DNA of 46,713 nucleotides from Nitrospirota bacterium (GTDB taxonomy: Bacteria > Nitrospirota > Thermodesulfovibrionia > Thermodesulfovibrionales > UBA6898), in NCBI GenBank assembly GCA_021811105.1, contig JAJZPM010000028.1:1-46713 (forward strand), in the 5' to 3' direction. The notes under the pieces were generated by a model that saw only the letters and a program-made list of their open reading frames with translations, had not been told where the DNA came from and ran no database searches. The position numbers were made by a program, and so were the translations under genes. Positions 11,703-24,294 of this stretch are shown piece by piece (the stretch's first letter is position 1; every line of letters begins with the position of its first letter).

Positions 11703-11905
11703 GGAATGAGTGGTCTTCCGGCTCAGGACATTTGCAGTACCCAAAGAAATTCCTTTTCTTCGGGTCCCTTTTCTACTCACCCGCCTTCCCATCCGCATAT
11801 GGCAGACAGTGGCTCCATTTGGGTTTTCGTTTCCATTACGGCTGCGTGACAGCAGGGGATTTTCACCCCTTTCCGCTTCTGCATTCCCTTTTTTTACTTT
11901 ACCTT
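11703..11905 (-). promoter_or_regulatory. Cobalamin (AdoCbl) riboswitch 1, leader of the cobalt uptake and corrin ring operon
   Basis: Read on the minus strand, the leader contains in order AAAGGGAATGCAG, GGGGTGAAAATCCCC, CTGTCACGCAGCCGTAATGG, the conserved GAGCCACTGTC, GGGAAGGCGGGTGAG and the B12-box core GAGCCGGAAGACC. This is the canonical element order of the cobalamin riboswitch. The B12 box ends about 35 nt before the AUG of the outer-membrane barrel gene, and no T-tract hairpin separates them. Control is therefore more likely at translation initiation (ribosome-site access) than by termination. It lies between the two cobamide operons and should repress cobalt import and ring synthesis when adenosylcobalamin is abundant. 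Confidence 0.93.
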
Positions 11906-16365: not shown

Positions 16366-17879
16366 AATCCGAGGATCCTTTTAATAAACTGCATGTCTAC
16401 ATTTCTTCTGACCAGGTCCGCGAGCCGGTCGATCGCCCTGTCCTGGTCGCGGCCATAGTCAACAGAAGTGTCCAGTGGTTCCAGTCCTTTTTTCTTCCGT
16501 ATCTGATCGAGTATGGACCTTCGAAAGGAGTTGTCCTCGAAAATACCATGCAGATAGGTTCCCCAGCAGTTGCCATTGCGCGACCCGTCAAGTCCACGTG
16601 AATCTCCCGGTCGGGACAACCTTTTTAAGTTAAAGAGCCCGATCTCCCCGGTACTTCTGCCCATATGAATTTCATATCCGTGAAGGCTCTGTCCAGGGGC
16701 AAAAGACCAGTTGCCGTTCCAGCCTGTCCAACCTTCTTCCCGGATCTCTGCCTCGACCTGACAGGTCATTTTTTCGGCTTCAAACGTGGTTTCGATATTC
16801 AGGAGGCCGAGGCCGTCGACCTCCCTGTGTCCGCTCTCGATATCAAGGGGATCGAAGATACGGCTGCCTAACATCTGGTATCCTCCGCAGAGCCCAACAA
16901 CCTCAATCCCTTTTGCGTATGCACGAAGTATGCTCTGATCTATGCCGCTTTCTCTTAAAAAAAGAAGATCCTTAACTGTATTTTTGGTGCCAGGCAGAAT
17001 CAGAAGATCAGCATTTTCAATATCAGCAGCGTTACGGGAATATATCAGCTCAACATCCGGCTCATGGCTGAGAGGGTCAAAGTCGGTGAAATTGGCAATA
17101 TACTTGAGTCGGACGACAACGACGCGTATTGCTCCCTGCCGTCCCGTCATCCTTTTTTCTGTAAGTGCAAGTCCGTCCTCCTCAGGAAGTCCCAGATCAA
17201 CGGCATAGGGCAATACCCCGATGACCGGTTTACCAGTCTTCCCAAGAATCATATCCAGCCCGGGATTAAGAATCTCAATATCACCGCGAAATTTATTTAT
17301 GATGAATCCTTTTATATGTCTGGCATCCCGGCCGAGCAGTTTCACCGTGCCATACAGGGATGCAAAGACCCCGCCTTTATCAATATCACCAACAAGCAGG
17401 ACCGGGGCCTTGGCCATCTTTGCTGCCGCCATATTCACAATATCGACGCTCAGAAGATTGATTTCAGCAGGGCTTCCGGCACCTTCCATAACAATCAAGT
17501 CGTGATTTTGCGATAACCGGCTGAAAGATTTTTCGACCGATTTCCAGGCCTCCTTCTTGTATGCGTAATACTCCCGAGCCCTCATCTGCCTCACTGCCTT
17601 CCCCTGAATGATCACCTGTGAGCCTGCCTCTCCTGTAGGTTTCAGAAGTACGGGATTCATGTCTGTGCTGGCAACCACTCTGGCAGCCTCTGCCTGGAGC
17701 GCCTGTGCCCTGCCGATCTCCCCGCCGTCACGTGTCATATACGAGTTGAGAGCCATATTTTGTGCCTTGAAGGGAGCAACCCGCATTCCTTCATCGCTGA
17801 ATATCCTGCAGAGGGCTGCTGCAATGAGGCTTTTCCCAGCGCCGGAACCCGTCCCCTGGACCATCAAGGCCTTAGCCAT
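16362..17879 (-). CDS. cbiP: Adenosylcobyric acid synthase
   Basis: CbiP/CobQ, 505 residues from the ATG at 17879. The N-terminal ATPase domain has ALMVQGTGSGAGKSLIAAAL and PFKAQNMALNSYMTRDGGEIG, then VMEGAGSPAEINL and PVLLVGDIDKGGVFASLYGT. The glutamine amidotransferase domain has VVGLCGGYQMLG (nucleophile Cys), LHGYEIHMG and TYLHGIFED. It amidates side chains b, d, e and g. The frame extends upstream, but the ATG chosen overlaps the cobC stop (TAATGGCTAA context) and begins at the conserved strand. The family is usually 480-520 residues, so the protein is complete. Confidence 0.93.
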   Translation of the reverse strand: MAKALMVQGTGSGAGKSLIAAALCRIFSDEGMRVAPFKAQNMALNSYMTRDGGEIGRAQALQAEAARVVASTDMNPVLLKPTGEAGSQVIIQGKAVRQMRAREYYAYKKEAWKSVEKSFSRLSQNHDLIVMEGAGSPAEINLLSVDIVNMAAAKMAKAPVLLVGDIDKGGVFASLYGTVKLLGRDARHIKGFIINKFRGDIEILNPGLDMILGKTGKPVIGVLPYAVDLGLPEEDGLALTEKRMTGRQGAIRVVVVRLKYIANFTDFDPLSHEPDVELIYSRNAADIENADLLILPGTKNTVKDLLFLRESGIDQSILRAYAKGIEVVGLCGGYQMLGSRIFDPLDIESGHREVDGLGLLNIETTFEAEKMTCQVEAEIREEGWTGWNGNWSFAPGQSLHGYEIHMGRSTGEIGLFNLKRLSRPGDSRGLDGSRNGNCWGTYLHGIFEDNSFRRSILDQIRKKKGLEPLDTSVDYGRDQDRAIDRLADLVRRNVDMQFIKRILGL

Positions 17880-18534
17880 TATTGTACTCCCCGTAAGAAA
17901 CATGGTTCATACACTTGACAACCGGATATCTGTCCCAGAACTCTATGATATTCACCGCAGCATAGTCCTGTTCTATCCTGAAAATATTTTCCAGCGGAAC
18001 ACCCAGTATATGGCAGAGCAGGACTCTGTTTACTCCGCCGTGGGCAACGATCGCAACGCACTGTCCCTGATGACTATCGAGGATACGGTTGAAAGACGGC
18101 AGTACCCGGTTCCTGAGGTCCAGGGTGCTTTCACCGCCCGGTGGACTGAACTGATGCGGATTGTCTGCCCAGGCATTGAACTCTTCAGGATACAGTTCCC
18201 GGATCTCGACGAAGCTCATATCCTCCCATATGCCAAAGTTCCTTTCCCGCAGGTCAGGGACCCTGATCGGCTCATATCCATGAGGGCTCGCGATGGGTTC
18301 AGCGCTTTTTACCGACCGACTCAGGTCAGAGCAATAAACAGCTTCAAGTTTTGCTGTCCCCCCGGGCCTGAGCGGTCTGTCAGTCTTTTTCAGGTACTCC
18401 TGAACAAATACTGCGGCGTTTCTGGCCTGCACAATACCTTTGTCCGCGAGCGCAACGTCCATGTGGCCCTTATAGCGTTTTGTCCCGCTGCCTTCTGTCT
18501 CGCCATGTCTTATCAGAAAGAGTGTCGTAACCAT
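17872..18534 (-). CDS. cobC: Alpha-ribazole phosphatase (histidine phosphatase family)
   Basis: A 220-residue phosphoglycerate-mutase-like phosphatase. The catalytic RHGETEGSG motif lies at the N-terminus, followed by YKGHMDVALADKG, then VYCSDLSRSVKSAEPIA, RDLREERN-like DLRERNFGIWEDM, and AIVAHGGVNRVLLCHILG with the second catalytic His. It would dephosphorylate alpha-ribazole 5'-phosphate or adenosylcobalamin 5'-phosphate. The position between cobS and cbiP supports CobC rather than a general phosphatase. The start overlaps the cobS end by 22 bp. Confidence 0.87.
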   Translation of the reverse strand: MVTTLFLIRHGETEGSGTKRYKGHMDVALADKGIVQARNAAVFVQEYLKKTDRPLRPGGTAKLEAVYCSDLSRSVKSAEPIASPHGYEPIRVPDLRERNFGIWEDMSFVEIRELYPEEFNAWADNPHQFSPPGGESTLDLRNRVLPSFNRILDSHQGQCVAIVAHGGVNRVLLCHILGVPLENIFRIEQDYAAVNIIEFWDRYPVVKCMNHVSYGEYNNG

Positions 18535-19337
18535 ACGTATGCCACCCCCAGATAGATGATTTCAGAAACCTCGGTCAATGCGCCGAAATGATCTCCTGTA
18601 AGCCCCCCGAATATGCGGTGAAAAAACCTCACCGAAATAAGACTGATAAGATAGAACAAAATGAGCATAAGGACACAGAGGCCAAGGGATTCTGACATAC
18701 TGATGCCTGATGCACTGATAAAAAATCCGGACACGACAACCGCCAGACAAAGTGTAATCATGAGCATTGATGATATTAGTAGACTCTGCATACCAGCGTT
18801 CTCGATAAAGATCTTTCCGAGGCCGTCATTTCTTGCTGATATGCCGTAAAACATCGGGGGAACCGTGATCCATTTCGAGAATGCAGGCATGAGGAACAGA
18901 ATTCCGGCTGTAGAGGGAAAAGAAAGATCGATGATAAGACTCTTCATGAAAAGATATTTAAGAATAATGACAAAAATGAGAGCGGCAACGCCGATGGAGC
19001 CGGTTGAGCTGTCTTTCATCACCCGCAGTCTTTTGCCGATATCAGTCTCCCTGTTGCCGGATGATTTTACGGCCAGGGCGTCCGCAGTATCAGCAAGCCC
19101 GTCGAGATCAAAGCCGCCGCTGCTGAATGCGAGCAGCACGACAAGCAGCCCGGCCGTAATATCCGGGGGAAATACCCTGCTGAACAGGATCAGCCCCAGC
19201 ACCAGAAAAAGCCCCTGAAGAGCCCCGGCCAGAGGGAAGAAGGCAGCAGACCTGCCGATCTCCCTGGCCGTAACATTGCCGCTTACGGAAACCGGGACGA
19301 TCGTGAGAAACTGCATTGCCAGAAGGAGATTCTTCAT
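18513..19337 (-). CDS. cobS: Adenosylcobinamide-GDP ribazoletransferase (cobalamin synthase)
   Basis: 274 residues with six or more membrane helices and the CobS signatures LLAMQFLTIVPV at the N-terminus and SSGGFDLDGLADTADAL for metal and nucleotide binding. KDSSTGSIGVAALIFVIILKY and GGLTGDHFGALTEVSEI follow near the end. It joins adenosylcobinamide-GDP with alpha-ribazole (phosphate) in the membrane. The ATG overlaps the cobT TGA by one base. The lower ligand used depends on what CobT activates, which ties this gene to the thiC-family gene at the head of the operon. Confidence 0.93.
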   Translation of the reverse strand: MKNLLLAMQFLTIVPVSVSGNVTAREIGRSAAFFPLAGALQGLFLVLGLILFSRVFPPDITAGLLVVLLAFSSGGFDLDGLADTADALAVKSSGNRETDIGKRLRVMKDSSTGSIGVAALIFVIILKYLFMKSLIIDLSFPSTAGILFLMPAFSKWITVPPMFYGISARNDGLGKIFIENAGMQSLLISSMLMITLCLAVVVSGFFISASGISMSESLGLCVLMLILFYLISLISVRFFHRIFGGLTGDHFGALTEVSEIIYLGVAYVWLRHSF

Positions 19338-20398
19338 CAGTTGACGATCTCGTCCGTGACGCCTGCTTCCCCGAACGTTGCCATCTCTTTATATATTTTG
19401 AGCCCGGCCTCGATCAGCGTCATCGCAAGCGCAGCGCCGGTGCCCTCACCGAGCCTGAGGTTCAGATCGAGAATAGGGCTCAACCCCATGGCCTCAAGCA
19501 TTGTCCGGTGGCCCTGCTCAACAGAATTATGGGCGGCGAAGAGATAATCAGATACCGTAGGGCAGAGTCTATAGGCGACCAGTGCCCCGGCCGTGGAGAT
19601 GAAACCATCCACAACCACGGGGATTCTGTGCGCAGCCGCACCGAGGATGAGACCTGCAATACCGCCAATCTCTGCCCCTCCCACCTTTGCGAGAACATCG
19701 ACCGCATCCTTCGGATCGGGCTGATTAATGCGAATCCCCTCTTCGATCACCTTGATTTTTCTGGCAAGCGATTCATCCGAGATCCCTGTCCCCTTGCCGG
19801 TGACCTCTGCAACCGGCTTCCTGGTGATCACGGATACTATGGCGCTCGAAGGGGTGGTATTGCCGATGCCCATATCGCCGGTCCCGAAGATTTTATAGTC
19901 TTTTTTCGCATAGTCCCCGGCAAGTTCTATACCGGTCTCGATACATCTGGTTGCCTCATCCCGCGTCATGGCCGGTCCGACCATGAAATTCTTTGTTCCC
20001 TTCACAACCTTCAATGCCATGAGGCCCTCAGTGCCCGCGAAATCATAGTCCACGCCAATGTCGATGACAACGACTTTTGCCCCTGCGTGGCGCGCAAGCA
20101 CATTGATGCCGGCACCTCCGCTGAGAAAGTTAAAGACCATCTGGCTTGTGACTTCTCTCGGATAGGCAGAGACCCCCTCGTCGACGACCCCGTGGTCACC
20201 GGCGAAGGTGAAGACTACCTTCCTGTTGAGGACAGGGCTCCTGTTTTCGGTGATTGCCACGATACGCCGGGCGAATTCCTCAAGTCTTCCCAGACTGCCA
20301 GGGGGCTTTGTCAGATTATCAAGATGCGCCTGCGCCGTGACGGACCAGTTCTCGCTGACGGGGCGGATTACTGCGATTGTCGAATCAATGCGGCCCAT
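19337..20398 (-). CDS. cobT: Nicotinate-nucleotide--(dimethyl)benzimidazole phosphoribosyltransferase
   Basis: 353 residues, the normal length. Motifs include [17 protein letters not shown] near the N-terminus (with the [10 protein letters not shown] signature), [68 protein letters not shown], and [15 protein letters not shown], which contains the catalytic Glu. It converts a benzimidazole base and nicotinate mononucleotide into the alpha-riboside phosphate. Some CobT enzymes accept 5-hydroxybenzimidazole, which matters here because no bluB is present and a thiC-family gene leads the operon. It lies 3 bp downstream of cobU. Confidence 0.94.
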
Positions 20399-20401
20399 GT
20401 G

Positions 20402-20929
20402 TTATATCTCCTTGATTTTTATTGGGATGCCAGCTGCGACAAGATAGACCTGGTCTGCCACCGCTGCAGCCCGTTGATTCAGTGTCCCTGCCAGGTCCCG
20501 GAACTTTCTGGCCATCTCGTTTTCAGAAACTATGCCGAAGCCGACCTCGTTGGACACCGCGAACAGTGAACCTCTAACAGATGTCAAAGCGGAAATAAAT
20601 GATTCCGTCTCCTTGAGGATGTCCCTATCCGCGAGCATCAGGTTGGAGAGCCAGAGAGTAAGGCAGTCGATCAGGATCACGTCATGCGAGTCTCTGATTT
20701 TCACCAGAAGCCCGGGAAGGTCCAGAGGCTCTTCAAAGGTATCCCAATCAACAAGACGCTCCAGGCGATGCCTTTCTCTCCGCACCTCCATTTCGTCGTC
20801 AAAGGCCTGTGCCGTTGCAATATAGGCCTTTTTGCCGGGGAGGGCGGAAGCCCGCGCCAAAGCTAAAGCGCTCTTGCCGCTCCGTGCCCCGCCTAAAACG
20901 AACACTTTTCTGCCTTGGTGATTATTCAC
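20402..20929 (-). CDS. cobU: Adenosylcobinamide kinase / adenosylcobinamide-phosphate guanylyltransferase
   Basis: 175 residues from a GTG at 20929. The P-loop VFVLGGARSGKSALALARA is followed by AYIATAQAFDDEMEVRRERHR, the guanylylated-His region E-M-x-x-R-x-x-x-H-R. Then come VILIDCLTLWLSNLM and AVSNEVGFGIVSENEMARKFRD. It phosphorylates cobinamide and attaches GMP. The reading frame is open to 21004, but the extra residues would lie inside the thiC-family gene and are unlike CobU. The GTG overlaps that gene's TGA (GTGA), matching the coupling seen elsewhere in the operon. Confidence 0.92.
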   Translation of the reverse strand: MNNHQGRKVFVLGGARSGKSALALARASALPGKKAYIATAQAFDDEMEVRRERHRLERLVDWDTFEEPLDLPGLLVKIRDSHDVILIDCLTLWLSNLMLADRDILKETESFISALTSVRGSLFAVSNEVGFGIVSENEMARKFRDLAGTLNQRAAAVADQVYLVAAGIPIKIKEI

Positions 20930-22230
20930 TTGGCCTTGTCGGATCCTGCCATGTTCTGTTCGAACATTCCGGAAAGGATATCGTTGGCGCAGAACTTGCC
21001 GCACATGGTACAGGAATGGTCGCTGCTGTTGCCTCTCTTTGCCTTGATATCACGGGCGCGTTCCGGATCAATGGCGAGCGCAAATTGTGCGTCCCATTTC
21101 ATATCGCGCCGGGCCTTTGACATCAGCCGGTCTTTGTCTGTTTTGCGGAGCTTTATCATATCGCCGATATGCGCGGCTATTCTTGACGCGATCACCCCTT
21201 CCCGGACATCTTCGGGGTAAGGCAGCCCCAGATGCTCGGACGGTGTCACGTAGCAAATAAAGTCGGCACCGAACGACGAGGAGAGTGCCGCGCCTATGGC
21301 AGCAGTAATGTGATCATAGCCCGGTGCAATGTCGGTCGTTATCGGGCCGAGCATATAGAAAGGCGACTCGCCGCTCATCTTCTTCTCCATGATGATGTTT
21401 GCCTCGATCTCGTTGATCGGGATATGCCCCGGTCCTTCGACCATGGTCTGGCACCCCTTCTCGCGGCCGATTTCAGCGAACTCGCAGTTGATAATGAGTT
21501 CCTGGATCTGGACCCGGTCACAGGCATCGTGGATCGCACCTGCCCGGAACCCGTTGCCGAGGCTCAGAACCGTGTCATATTTTTTCATGATCTCGACAAC
21601 ACGGTCGAAGTGTTCGTAAAGAGGGTTTTCCATTTTGTTATGTTCCATCCAGGCGACCATATAGGAGCCGCCCTTGGAGACTAGACCGCCGTAACGATAA
21701 TGCTGCTTGCGGAGCATCTCGACCGTCTTGCGGTTGATGCCGCAATGGATCGCCATGAAGGCTACGCCTTCGGCGCACTGCTTTTCGGTGATCTCAAAGA
21801 GAAGCTCGGCCGGCATATTCACCGCAGCACCGTATTTTTCAATGGCGATTGCAAAGGCCTCGTACAGGGGAACGGTTCCGATCGGAAGGCTGATTGCATC
21901 CATAACCGCTTTTCTGGTTCCGGCAATGTTTCCACCAACACTCAGGTCCATCAGGGTATCCGCACCGTATAGCTGGGCGATCCGTGCCTTTTCAACCTCC
22001 ATGGCAATTTCTGCGATGTCAGTCGAGGTCCCGATCGAGGCATTCACCTTTGTCCGCAGTCCCTTGCCGATACCGACAACATTCTGCTTCCTGTGTTTAT
22101 TGGCCGGTATGATGATCTTTCCCGATGCTACCCTCTCCCGTACTACTTCGCTATCGATCTCTTCGGCTATCGATACGGCTCTGATCTCCTCAGTGGTTTC
22201 TCCCTTTAATGCTCTCTCCAGCTGTGTCAT
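20926..22230 (-). CDS. ThiC-family radical SAM protein, probably 5-hydroxybenzimidazole synthase (BzaF-like)
   Basis: 434 residues of the ThiC superfamily: GKIIIPANKHRKQNVVGIG near residue 50, TKVNASIGTSTD, DLSVGGNIAGTRKAVMD, PIGTVPLYEAF, MAIHCGINRKTVEML, SKGGSYMVAWM, MVEGPGHIPINEIE, and a C-terminal cluster motif CTMCGKFC. The cluster spacing here is C-x2-C-x3-C, one residue shorter than the C-x2-C-x4-C of well-studied ThiC. ThiC makes the thiamine pyrimidine from aminoimidazole ribotide; its paralogue BzaF makes 5-hydroxybenzimidazole, a cobamide lower ligand, from the same substrate. This gene leads cobU-cobT-cobS behind a cobalamin riboswitch, and I see no TPP riboswitch or other thi genes, so BzaF is favoured. 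The ATG at 22230 has a GGAGG Shine-Dalgarno; the upstream extension to 22254 lacks one. Confidence 0.8.
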   Translation of the reverse strand: MTQLERALKGETTEEIRAVSIAEEIDSEVVRERVASGKIIIPANKHRKQNVVGIGKGLRTKVNASIGTSTDIAEIAMEVEKARIAQLYGADTLMDLSVGGNIAGTRKAVMDAISLPIGTVPLYEAFAIAIEKYGAAVNMPAELLFEITEKQCAEGVAFMAIHCGINRKTVEMLRKQHYRYGGLVSKGGSYMVAWMEHNKMENPLYEHFDRVVEIMKKYDTVLSLGNGFRAGAIHDACDRVQIQELIINCEFAEIGREKGCQTMVEGPGHIPINEIEANIIMEKKMSGESPFYMLGPITTDIAPGYDHITAAIGAALSSSFGADFICYVTPSEHLGLPYPEDVREGVIASRIAAHIGDMIKLRKTDKDRLMSKARRDMKWDAQFALAIDPERARDIKAKRGNSSDHSCTMCGKFCANDILSGMFEQNMAGSDKAK

Positions 22231-22260
22231 TTTTCCTCCTGCGTGTAGTGGCAATTTTTA

Positions 22261-22989
22261 ATCGAGTAGGCGGGGGCAATTAGCCCCTGCCTCTCACACC
22301 ACCGTACGTGCCGTTCGGCATAAGGCGGTTCATGTGGGACGCCGAAGGCGTCGTTGTTATGCAAGAAGGCTTATAACGTCGCATTACCTCCTTCATTACA
22401 TCGGTTACCTTTGAAGAGCTGTTCCCTTCCGTTGCCACAGACGTTTGACGCTCCCTATCCTTATTCTCACGGGTTCTGCCCGTTACCCTCCGGTAGTCCT
22501 CTGACATCTCAGTCATCCTTCCTGCGTCTCCTTCGTCCAATGAAACTTCCGCATCTCTTCGTTCCTACATGTTCCAGCCTTCGTCGCCATGCGCTTCGAC
22601 TACTATGCCTTCTGCTGACTTCTGTCTGTTCATCTCACCGCCTCTCGACGCTGATAGCCCGAAACGTTCAGGACAAACAAACAGACCTCCCCGTGTATTG
22701 CGCACACACCTTCCCCCCATATACCCGTCGCATCTACTCCCACGCCTTCCCGAATGACTATTGGGCTTTGAATCTTTTGGCCTTCTCGCCCAGACATGGC
22801 TGCCTCGTATGCGCTTCGTGTTCCTCGGGCCGGGGTTTTGCCGTCCGCTTCCTTCAGACCCTGCCTCGCGGCGGTAGCCCTTGCGGTTCGGCTAATGGTT
22901 CCCGTCATCAGGGTCCATAGAGGACTTTTCCGCCTCGGCGGATCAGCCGGGGCTGACACCTCCAAGTATGTGCGTCCTGACGGGCGCAC
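22261..22989 (-). mobile_element. Group II intron without an encoded reverse transcriptase, in the operon leader
   Basis: On the minus strand the 5' end reads GTGCGCCCGTCAGGACGCAC, starting at 22989 with the GUGCG group II consensus. A domain V lies at 22298-22329: nine-pair lower stem with one mismatch, CG bulge, four-pair upper stem, GAAC tetraloop. A domain VI stem with a bulged A (CCTACTC) follows, and the element ends in GAT at 22261. At about 729 nt there is no room for the intron protein and no RT motifs occur; the small open frames inside are not credible genes. A CAAAA at 22836-22840 could be EBS1, pairing with TTTTG immediately before the 5' splice site. It lies directly behind the T-tract of an intrinsic terminator, the target habit of group IIC introns. 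Splicing competence is not proven; a reverse transcriptase supplied in trans would be needed for mobility. Confidence 0.8.
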
Positions 22990-22990
22990 C

Positions 22991-23027
22991 AAAAAAAAAT
23001 CCTCAAGGCATAAAATGTCTTGAGGAT
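22991..23027 (-). terminator. Intrinsic terminator of the cobalamin riboswitch leader
   Basis: On the minus strand a perfect 9-bp stem ATCCTCAAG / CTTGAGGAT with an 11-nt loop is followed by nine T residues. Just upstream, TGAGGAT (23045-23051) is complementary to the ATCCTCA that starts the stem, so a competing antiterminator helix is possible. Together with the riboswitch this forms a plausible B12-dependent transcription switch. The intron begins two bases after the T-tract. Confidence 0.9.
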
Positions 23028-23124
23028 TGCACCCTGTTTGCTTCATCCTCACCCTCTATCCGCGAGAAGGCACTCATGACGATCGGCGACTACTCATCGC
23101 CATCCCGTACTCGGATACTAATCT

Positions 23125-23295
23125 TTCAGGCAGGTCTTCTGGCTCCCGGTTCACCCTACTCACCGGCCTTCCCGTCTGTTTGCACAGACAGTGGCGTTTC
23201 GGCTTTCGTCCCGGTTACAGCGGCGGGACCGCTCCCGGTTTGGATTGCTCCTCACGGGATTCCCTACTTATGCCTCGCGGCACCTGAAAGTTAAT
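23125..23295 (-). promoter_or_regulatory. Cobalamin (AdoCbl) riboswitch 2, leader of the thiC-family/cobUTS operon
   Basis: The minus strand shows the full canonical order: AGGTGCCGCGAGGC, AGGGAATCCCGTGAGG, AATCCAAACCGGGAGCGGTC, CGCCGCTGTAACCGGGACG, CGCCACTGTCTG, GACGGGAAGGCCGG, and the B12 box GAGCCAGAAGACCTGCCTG. The intrinsic terminator lies about 100 nt downstream with a possible antiterminator partner, pointing to control by transcription termination, unlike riboswitch 1. It is positioned to repress nucleotide-loop assembly, amidation and the ThiC-family gene when coenzyme B12 is plentiful, which is strong evidence for that gene's role in cobamide synthesis. Confidence 0.96.
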
Positions 23296-23298
23296 TTA

Positions 23299-23328
23299 AT
23301 TAAAGACGATAGAGAATACGTTTGTCAA
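23299..23328 (-). promoter_or_regulatory. Sigma-70-type promoter for riboswitch 2
   Basis: Minus strand -35 TTGACA (23323-23328), 18-bp spacer, -10 TTTAAT (23299-23304). Transcription would start near 23292, exactly at the 5' edge of the riboswitch. The perfect -35 and the correct distance to the RNA element make it convincing. Confidence 0.65.
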
Positions 23329-23570: not shown

Positions 23571-24294
23571 GTGGAGGCAGTATTGAAGCGTATCCGAAAG
23601 ATTAAGCCTATGAGGGATGAAGAAAAGCGGCTCAGGTACCTTTCAATTGAAGAGTGCCCTATCCTGGTAAGCGCATGCGAGCACCACCTTCAACCTATAG
23701 TAATTACGGCACTCAATACCGGCATGCGGCGAGGAGAAATATTCGGGCTCAAATGGACCAATGTGGATCTGAAAAATGGTTTTATCCTCCTGAATAAGAC
23801 AAAAAACGGAGAGCGCCGGGAAATCCCTATCAACAACACACAAAAAAGAGTGCTGCAGCGCTTGACCAGAAGGCTCGATATTCCCCATGTCTTTTTTAAT
23901 CAGGATACAGGAAAACCCTATCAGGACATCAAGCGGGCATTTGCTGCTGCAAAGAAGAGAGTAGAGACCCTGAAATGCCCGGATTGTGACTACAGAAAGC
24001 CAAGGCTGAAAACCGAAGATGAAGCAGGCACCTGTCCGAAGTGCGAGGCGAAGTTGGCGGTCTTTAAAGGCATCGAAGATTTTCATTTTCACGATCTGAG
24101 ACATACTTTCGCGTCTCACTGCATAATGGCCGGAGTCGACATAACCACTCTATCCAAGCTTCTGGGACATAAGAGCCTAAAAATTGACCCTCAGATATGC
24201 ACACCTCGCACCGTCCCACCTGGTAAAGGCAATAGACGTCCTGGATAAAGCGATCAATAAAAAAATGAGTAGCACAAAATTAGCACAAAATTAG
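23571..24294 (+). pseudogene. Tyrosine recombinase (phage-type integrase) relic with a zinc-ribbon insertion
   Basis: Only the catalytic half remains: LSIEECPILVSAC, ITALNTGMRRGEIFGLKW (first catalytic Arg), HDLRHTFASH (His-x-x-Arg) and LLGHKSLK. The N-terminal arm-binding and core-binding domains are missing; the frame begins at a GTG with a stop just upstream. After LLGHKSLK the frame is lost by a one-base shift near 24180-24187. In the next frame the sequence continues MTLRYAHLAPSHLVKAIDVL to a TAG at 24292, restoring the catalytic Tyr. An unusual insertion, CPDC ... CPKC at about residues 135-160, looks like a zinc ribbon between the two halves of the catalytic domain. Gene end, terminator and att repeat follow directly, the normal order for an integrase beside its attachment site. 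Confidence 0.85.

Follow-up and report, generated by a model that had tools for sequence, protein, structure and literature searches.

An ORF-less group IIC intron directly behind the terminator of a cobalamin riboswitch

The window analysed here, the whole of a 46.7-kb contig (C12) from a 3.94-Mb genome of 93 contigs that is fragmented at repeats, carries on its minus strand a 729-nt group IIC intron that has lost most of its maturase gene. It lies one base behind the terminator of a cobalamin riboswitch and ahead of the first gene of a cobamide operon, and the terminator and its competing antiterminator are both intact. We consider it likely, on the whole, that this intron is a terminator-targeted, conditionally transcribed and probably decaying passenger of the operon.

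The intron, its ends and its target site

Three Rfam models match above their gathering scores and in collinear order on the minus strand: RF02001 (129 bits, 22875–22700), RF01998 (62 bits, 22657–22576) and RF00029, which represents domains V and VI (42.9 bits against a cut-off of 40, 22330–22261). Between them they cover parts of domains I–III and domains V–VI. The intron and its parts are as follows.

22261–22989, minus strand: group IIC intron, 729 nt, 5′ end at 22989 and 3′ end at 22261, starting GTGCGCCC and ending CTCGAT; Rfam matches and the empty sites in G010 and G012 agree
22990–22994, minus strand: IBS1, TTTTG, the final five bases of the 5′ exon; from pairing with EBS1 and covariation in 18 introns
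22929–22956, minus strand: 28-nt double-hairpin repeat TCAGCCCCGGCTGATCCGCCGAGGCGGA in a terminal loop of domain I; from comparison with relatives whose loop lacks it
22775–22779, minus strand: EBS1, CAAAA; from alignment position and covariation with IBS1
22280–22516, minus strand: remnant of the ORF for the intron-encoded protein, with about 47 N-terminal residues, a deletion junction and out-of-frame last codons; from alignment and ORF trace
22296–22331, minus strand: domain V; U replaces G at 22323, facing C 22304, in a change private to this intron; from RF00029 and a consensus fold
22261–22295, minus strand: domain VI, with a bulged branch-point A at 22267; from RF00029 and the consensus fold

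The ends are fixed by an empty site, by EBS1–IBS1 covariation and by termini (5′ GTGCGCC, 3′ CTCGAT) that the intron has in common with its relatives. The empty site, TTTTTTTTG followed directly by TAAAAATTGCC, is found in G010, a genome of another genus in the same family whose BzaF/ThiC-like protein is 96% identical to that of the window. It is exact: the window minus 729 nt equals the G010 leader, which reads CTTGAGGATTTTTTTTG and then TAAAAATTGCCACTACAC, and the 729 nt sit between G and T with no base duplicated and none lost. The leader of G012 (TTTTTTTTTG followed by TAAAAAATAGC), a second intron-free relative, agrees.

EBS1 (22779–22775) pairs with IBS1 (22994–22990) at all five positions in the window. 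We aligned domain I of 18 related introns and took the five exon bases ahead of each 5′ end; 74 of 90 positions form Watson–Crick pairs, compared with 53.3 ± 3.4 when exons are shuffled, and none of 10,000 shuffles reached 74. Shifting the register cuts the count to 30–48. Both partners are altered in the G106 intron (CAATA with TATTG) and in those of G074 and G079 (AAAGA with TCTTT). Of the other introns in the set, all whose 5′ end was traced are likewise preceded by a T-rich tail. Group IIC introns are found immediately behind terminators as a rule (PMC8919778; likewise PMC4424553), and terminator-adjacent insertion is the usual landing habit of this element class.

An earlier note on this DNA had placed a group II intron at 22261–22989, directly behind a riboswitch terminator, and had proposed CAAAA as EBS1 for TTTTG. 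The Rfam matches and the G010 empty site confirm these coordinates to the base, the covariance-model check suggested in the note returned the domain matches given above, and the pairing and covariation bear out EBS1. The terminator stem ends at 22998 and the intron begins at 22989, with an exact empty site, so the placement stands as well. The strand, which the note left unstated, is the minus strand; the 5′ end does lie just behind a nine-T tract, at a distance of one G rather than two bases. The description of the intron itself holds, and must be completed by the 28-nt insertion in domain I, which had been overlooked.

This repeat, composed of TCAGCCCCGGCTGA and TCCGCCGAGGCGGA, is missing from the equivalent loop of the G074, G019, G079, G106 and G001 introns. 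Eight copies are present in the genome, against none for a reversed control. Among the seven further copies (L043, L042, L041, L040, L039, L044), six have flanks similar to CTCTTTGCC and AAAAGAGGGG and one lies between ATACCCGC and GCGGGTAT; other genomes of the genus and class contain the repeat too. The mobile double-hairpin elements of mitochondria look similar, and by this analogy the repeat may be a bacterial counterpart of them.

Loss of the maturase gene and condition of the ribozyme

The intron has no RT/maturase gene, as the earlier note had stated; about 47 N-terminal residues and the last codons are left. The remnant is 50% identical to residues 1–60 of the G074 protein, its C-terminal part was traced against G200, and its frame crosses domain V and enters domain VI. 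In G074, G019 and G079, relatives that are 1,882–1,884 nt long and 79–81% identical over intron nt 63–570 encode an RT/maturase. The window intron is a deletion derivative of this RT/maturase-bearing lineage.

Such losses have happened more than once. The intron on contig C74 of G106, behind a terminator ending TTTTTTTATTG, is an independently ORF-deleted relative, and independent deletions also affect related introns on G121:C12 and on several other bacterial contigs. The G200 sequence, with matches to intron nt 1–34 and 614–729, was considered as a copy of this ORF-less intron inserted elsewhere and rejected: it keeps the 3′ half of the maturase gene and has no domain I, which makes it an independent deletion. 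ORF-deleted IIC introns recur in unrelated bacteria (L163, L175, L198, L224 and L225, with the G106 and G121 introns as L262 and L319). Domain V lies less than 700 nt from the domain I motif in five of the nine database copies where that motif was found; surveys that rely on RT genes may therefore underestimate how common ORF-less IIC introns are.

A close full-length copy in the intron's own genome was likewise sought, as the earlier note had proposed with a trans-acting protein in mind, and rejected. Contig C52 carries merely about 110 nt of related 5′ end. No close maturase was found in the genome; the best come from introns of another IIC lineage on C45 and C11, with 59–60% identity across the N-terminal half. 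Each of these two introns (L028/L030) encodes an RT/maturase half that breaks off where its contig ends, in both cases at the same codon (...RYA). At the start of contigs C3 and C28 (L031/L032) stands the 3′ end of a different group II intron, and behind it the protein resumes (...NIYVKS). It thus looks as if a second group II intron splits the C45 and C11 RT genes at their YADD motif, giving apparent twintrons in an assembly that is not closed.

The ribozyme itself is largely preserved. A consensus fold of five relatives, computed after cutting out the 28-nt insert and the greater part of domain IV, contains 155 pairs, 34 of them with double changes, and the window keeps 145 of the 155; these counts lean towards structure because alignment and fold were drawn from the same five sequences. 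The earlier description of a good domain V and VI holds for domain VI, whose bulged A is present, and has to be qualified for domain V, whose helix has one U·C mismatch (22323/22304). In a database scan that possibly lacked the window's own genome, with a pattern allowing G or T at 22323, this base is G in at least 119 matches and T in none of the 119 listed. Judged from this mismatch, activity may be impaired; a single domain V mismatch need not abolish it.

The riboswitch, the operon and the fate of the transcript

The leader and the genes around the insertion comprise the following features.

23112–23302, minus strand: cobalamin riboswitch aptamer; RF00174, 113.2 bits, full-length model match
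23045–23050, minus strand: antiterminator 5′ arm GAGGAT, pairing with ATCCTC at 23027–23022, the terminator 5′ arm; from folding, kept in orthologous leaders
22991–23028, minus strand: intrinsic terminator, 10-bp stem (23028–23019/23007–22998) and nine T's (22999–22991); from folding
22230–22260, minus strand: 3′ exon leader, with Shine–Dalgarno AGGAGG at 22240–22235 and ATG at 22230; the same leader lies directly behind the terminator in G010
20926–22230, minus strand: BzaF/ThiC-like protein, first gene of the operon; NCBIfam NF009895 (589 bits) and TIGR00190, with TIGR04386 (BzaB) at 525, below its cut-off of 700
17872–21004, minus strand: cobU, cobT, cobS and cobC, downstream of the BzaF/ThiC-like gene; NCBIfam matches

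Along the minus strand the order is thus aptamer, terminator, G 22990, intron, a 30-nt leader with AGGAGG, and the ATG. The terminator folds at −14.2 kcal/mol (23035–22990), with the same structure in G010. When the leader is folded up to the point before the terminator 3′ arm, the GAGGAT/ATCCTC hairpin replaces the terminator, and both motifs are conserved in intron-free orthologous leaders. With an aptamer and a mutually exclusive antiterminator and terminator, this is a transcription-terminating cobalamin riboswitch. Its platform is complete, and the intron is therefore not the expression platform.

The name BzaF is based on operon context, since among the NCBIfam models those for ThiC pass their cut-offs and the one for BzaB falls short; a separate ThiC (G000:C82) is 46% identical to the BzaF/ThiC-like protein. 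A tyrosine recombinase fragment adjoins the riboswitch (23571–24248, plus strand). The cobamide operon shares about 83% DNA identity with that of G010 over 10.4 kb, with 96% protein identity for BzaF and 84% for ThiC, and BzaF matches in the same-genus genomes searched are at ThiC level only (45–46%). Collectively, these sequence comparisons suggest lateral transfer of the operon. Two further cobalamin elements were seen. A paralogous leader at G000:C14:5637-5980 (L038 2138–2480), before a btuF-like gene, has the same antiterminator/terminator plan and a similar terminator; it heads a btuFCD-cobUTSC-like cluster, which gives the genome two cobUTSC sets. Another aptamer, at 11713–11874 of the window (minus strand), matches model positions 47–167 only and has an extra insertion of about 39 nt in a peripheral arm.

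The explanation that we favour starts from a terminator-recognising group IIC retro-intron lineage, which would have inserted behind the riboswitch hairpin of the bzaF-cobUTSC operon; the hairpin, together with the 5-bp EBS1–IBS1 match to the U-tract and the G behind it, would have guided the insertion. The maturase/RT gene has largely been deleted, before or after this event. When B12 is plentiful, transcription would stop at the terminator, just ahead of the intron; when it is scarce, the antiterminator would form and the operon would be transcribed with the intron inside a long 5′ leader. Because the insertion left the switch whole, we infer that the intron is made on read-through alone, and to this extent the anatomy supports the earlier note, which had the intron quiet when B12 is abundant. 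Splicing would restore the ancestral leader. The 3′ exon contains both the Shine–Dalgarno sequence and the ATG, so translation should be possible on unspliced mRNA and would not depend on splicing.

The note had gone further and described splicing as an extra layer between riboswitch and cobamide genes. This does not follow: the 3′ exon has every signal needed for translation, and orthologues manage without the intron. The complete platform, the domain V lesion, the lack of a close maturase in the genome and the published SAM-I case (PMC9481103) also speak against it. From the broken domain V pair, the remnant ORF running into domains V and VI and the lack of a close maturase, we think that in vivo splicing of the intron is poor or absent and that the element is mostly a tolerated passenger. 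If unspliced, a structured, untranslated leader of 729 nt might reduce expression, and the effect would then perhaps not be neutral.

Efficient splicing in vivo, by the intron itself or with a maturase supplied in trans by some other IIC intron in the genome, would leave the host with a normal leader and make the insertion silent. We regard this as unlikely, although the ends, EBS1 and its pairing with IBS1, domain VI with its branch-point A and most helices (145 of 155 consensus pairs) are intact and count against weak splicing. The half RT/maturases encoded by the C45 and C11 introns could be provided in trans: trans splicing and mobilisation of ORF-less introns are documented in T. elongatus (PMC2882425), and most bacterial ORF-less group II introns live alongside related, ORF-bearing introns that possibly help in trans (PMC4424553). 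Set against this are the domain V lesion, the run of the remnant ORF into domains V/VI, and the fact that the maturases at hand are of another lineage and apparently interrupted at their YADD motif.

The position of the intron behind a conditional terminator also invites a reading in which splicing is a true second control layer, with read-through RNA productive only once spliced and with the B12 state or the exon hairpin affecting splicing. For group IIC introns, the terminator stem-loop is the feature by which 5′ exon and 5′ splice site are recognised (PMC7161350), and the antiterminator takes the 5′ arm of that stem. In antiterminated RNA the exon hairpin is dismantled, and splicing of exactly those transcripts that carry the intron could thereby be slowed. 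Yet start signals in the 3′ exon, a riboswitch platform that is complete without the intron, orthologous leaders in which the arrangement is not conserved, the domain V lesion and a similar published case that was judged fortuitous (PMC9481103) make such a layer very unlikely. About as doubtful is the reading in which the intron has been taken over as a second gate, with low B12 opening transcription and productive cobamide-gene expression then needing the splicing of a read-through RNA whose exon hairpin the antiterminator dismantles. Aptamer and ribozyme do share one leader, as in the c-di-GMP-II/group I system, where the aptamer controls the ribozyme allosterically; here an uninterrupted terminator and antiterminator lie in between and relatives keep this platform without the intron. 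Since the terminator is uninterrupted and the ribozyme does not serve as the platform, we dropped allosteric control, to which we give almost no credence.

Relation to known systems

With the terminator-inserted group IIC (bacterial class C) introns, as portrayed in PMC8919778 and in PMC7161350 (citing Robart et al. 2007), the intron shares the GTGCG start, a short domain I of RF02001 type, domains V/VI, a single EBS1–IBS1 pairing and a site directly behind hairpin and T-tract. It differs in the private domain V mismatch, the 28-nt repeat in the domain I loop and the absence of an RT/maturase ORF, a class C feature that is not obligatory for membership. Its terminator is conditional, being part of a riboswitch, whereas theirs are constitutive.

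The T. elongatus TeI3 ORF-less introns (PMC2882425) likewise have one internal ORF deletion with N- and C-terminal remnants. Those introns proliferate as a family, and driver IEPs and close relatives share their genome; the window holds a single IIC copy without a close maturase.

Our literature search on group II introns behind riboswitch terminators returned one direct precedent, a SAM-I riboswitch with a group IIC intron behind it, explained by its authors as a coincidence of terminator targeting (PMC9481103). There too, riboswitch, uninterrupted terminator stem and intron follow one another; the window differs in its cobalamin aptamer, and its own intron is ORF-less and has a demonstrated empty site. 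None of the roughly 40 other introns with scanned 5′ flanks has a riboswitch in front of it, and the one cobalamin match in that scan (L198) lies more than 4 kb away on the opposite strand. We conclude that the placement is uncommon and of a known kind, with at least one published precedent. What the window adds is the ORF-less state, the exact empty site, the domain V lesion and the loop repeat, which make it a good specimen and not a new system.

It is a clean case of a terminator-seeking intron that has landed on a conditional terminator, whereby its own transcription would come under a vitamin switch, and it lends itself, as a natural construct, to the question whether splicing of IIC introns proceeds while an antiterminator holds the exon hairpin open. 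The c-di-GMP-II aptamer/group I allosteric ribozyme, as described in PMC9481103, likewise combines, in a single leader, an aptamer with a self-splicing intron downstream of it. In that system the ribozyme is the expression platform, whereas in the window a complete terminator platform, kept in intron-free relatives, stands between the two. The case cautions annotators against taking neighbouring riboswitches and introns for allosteric ribozymes.
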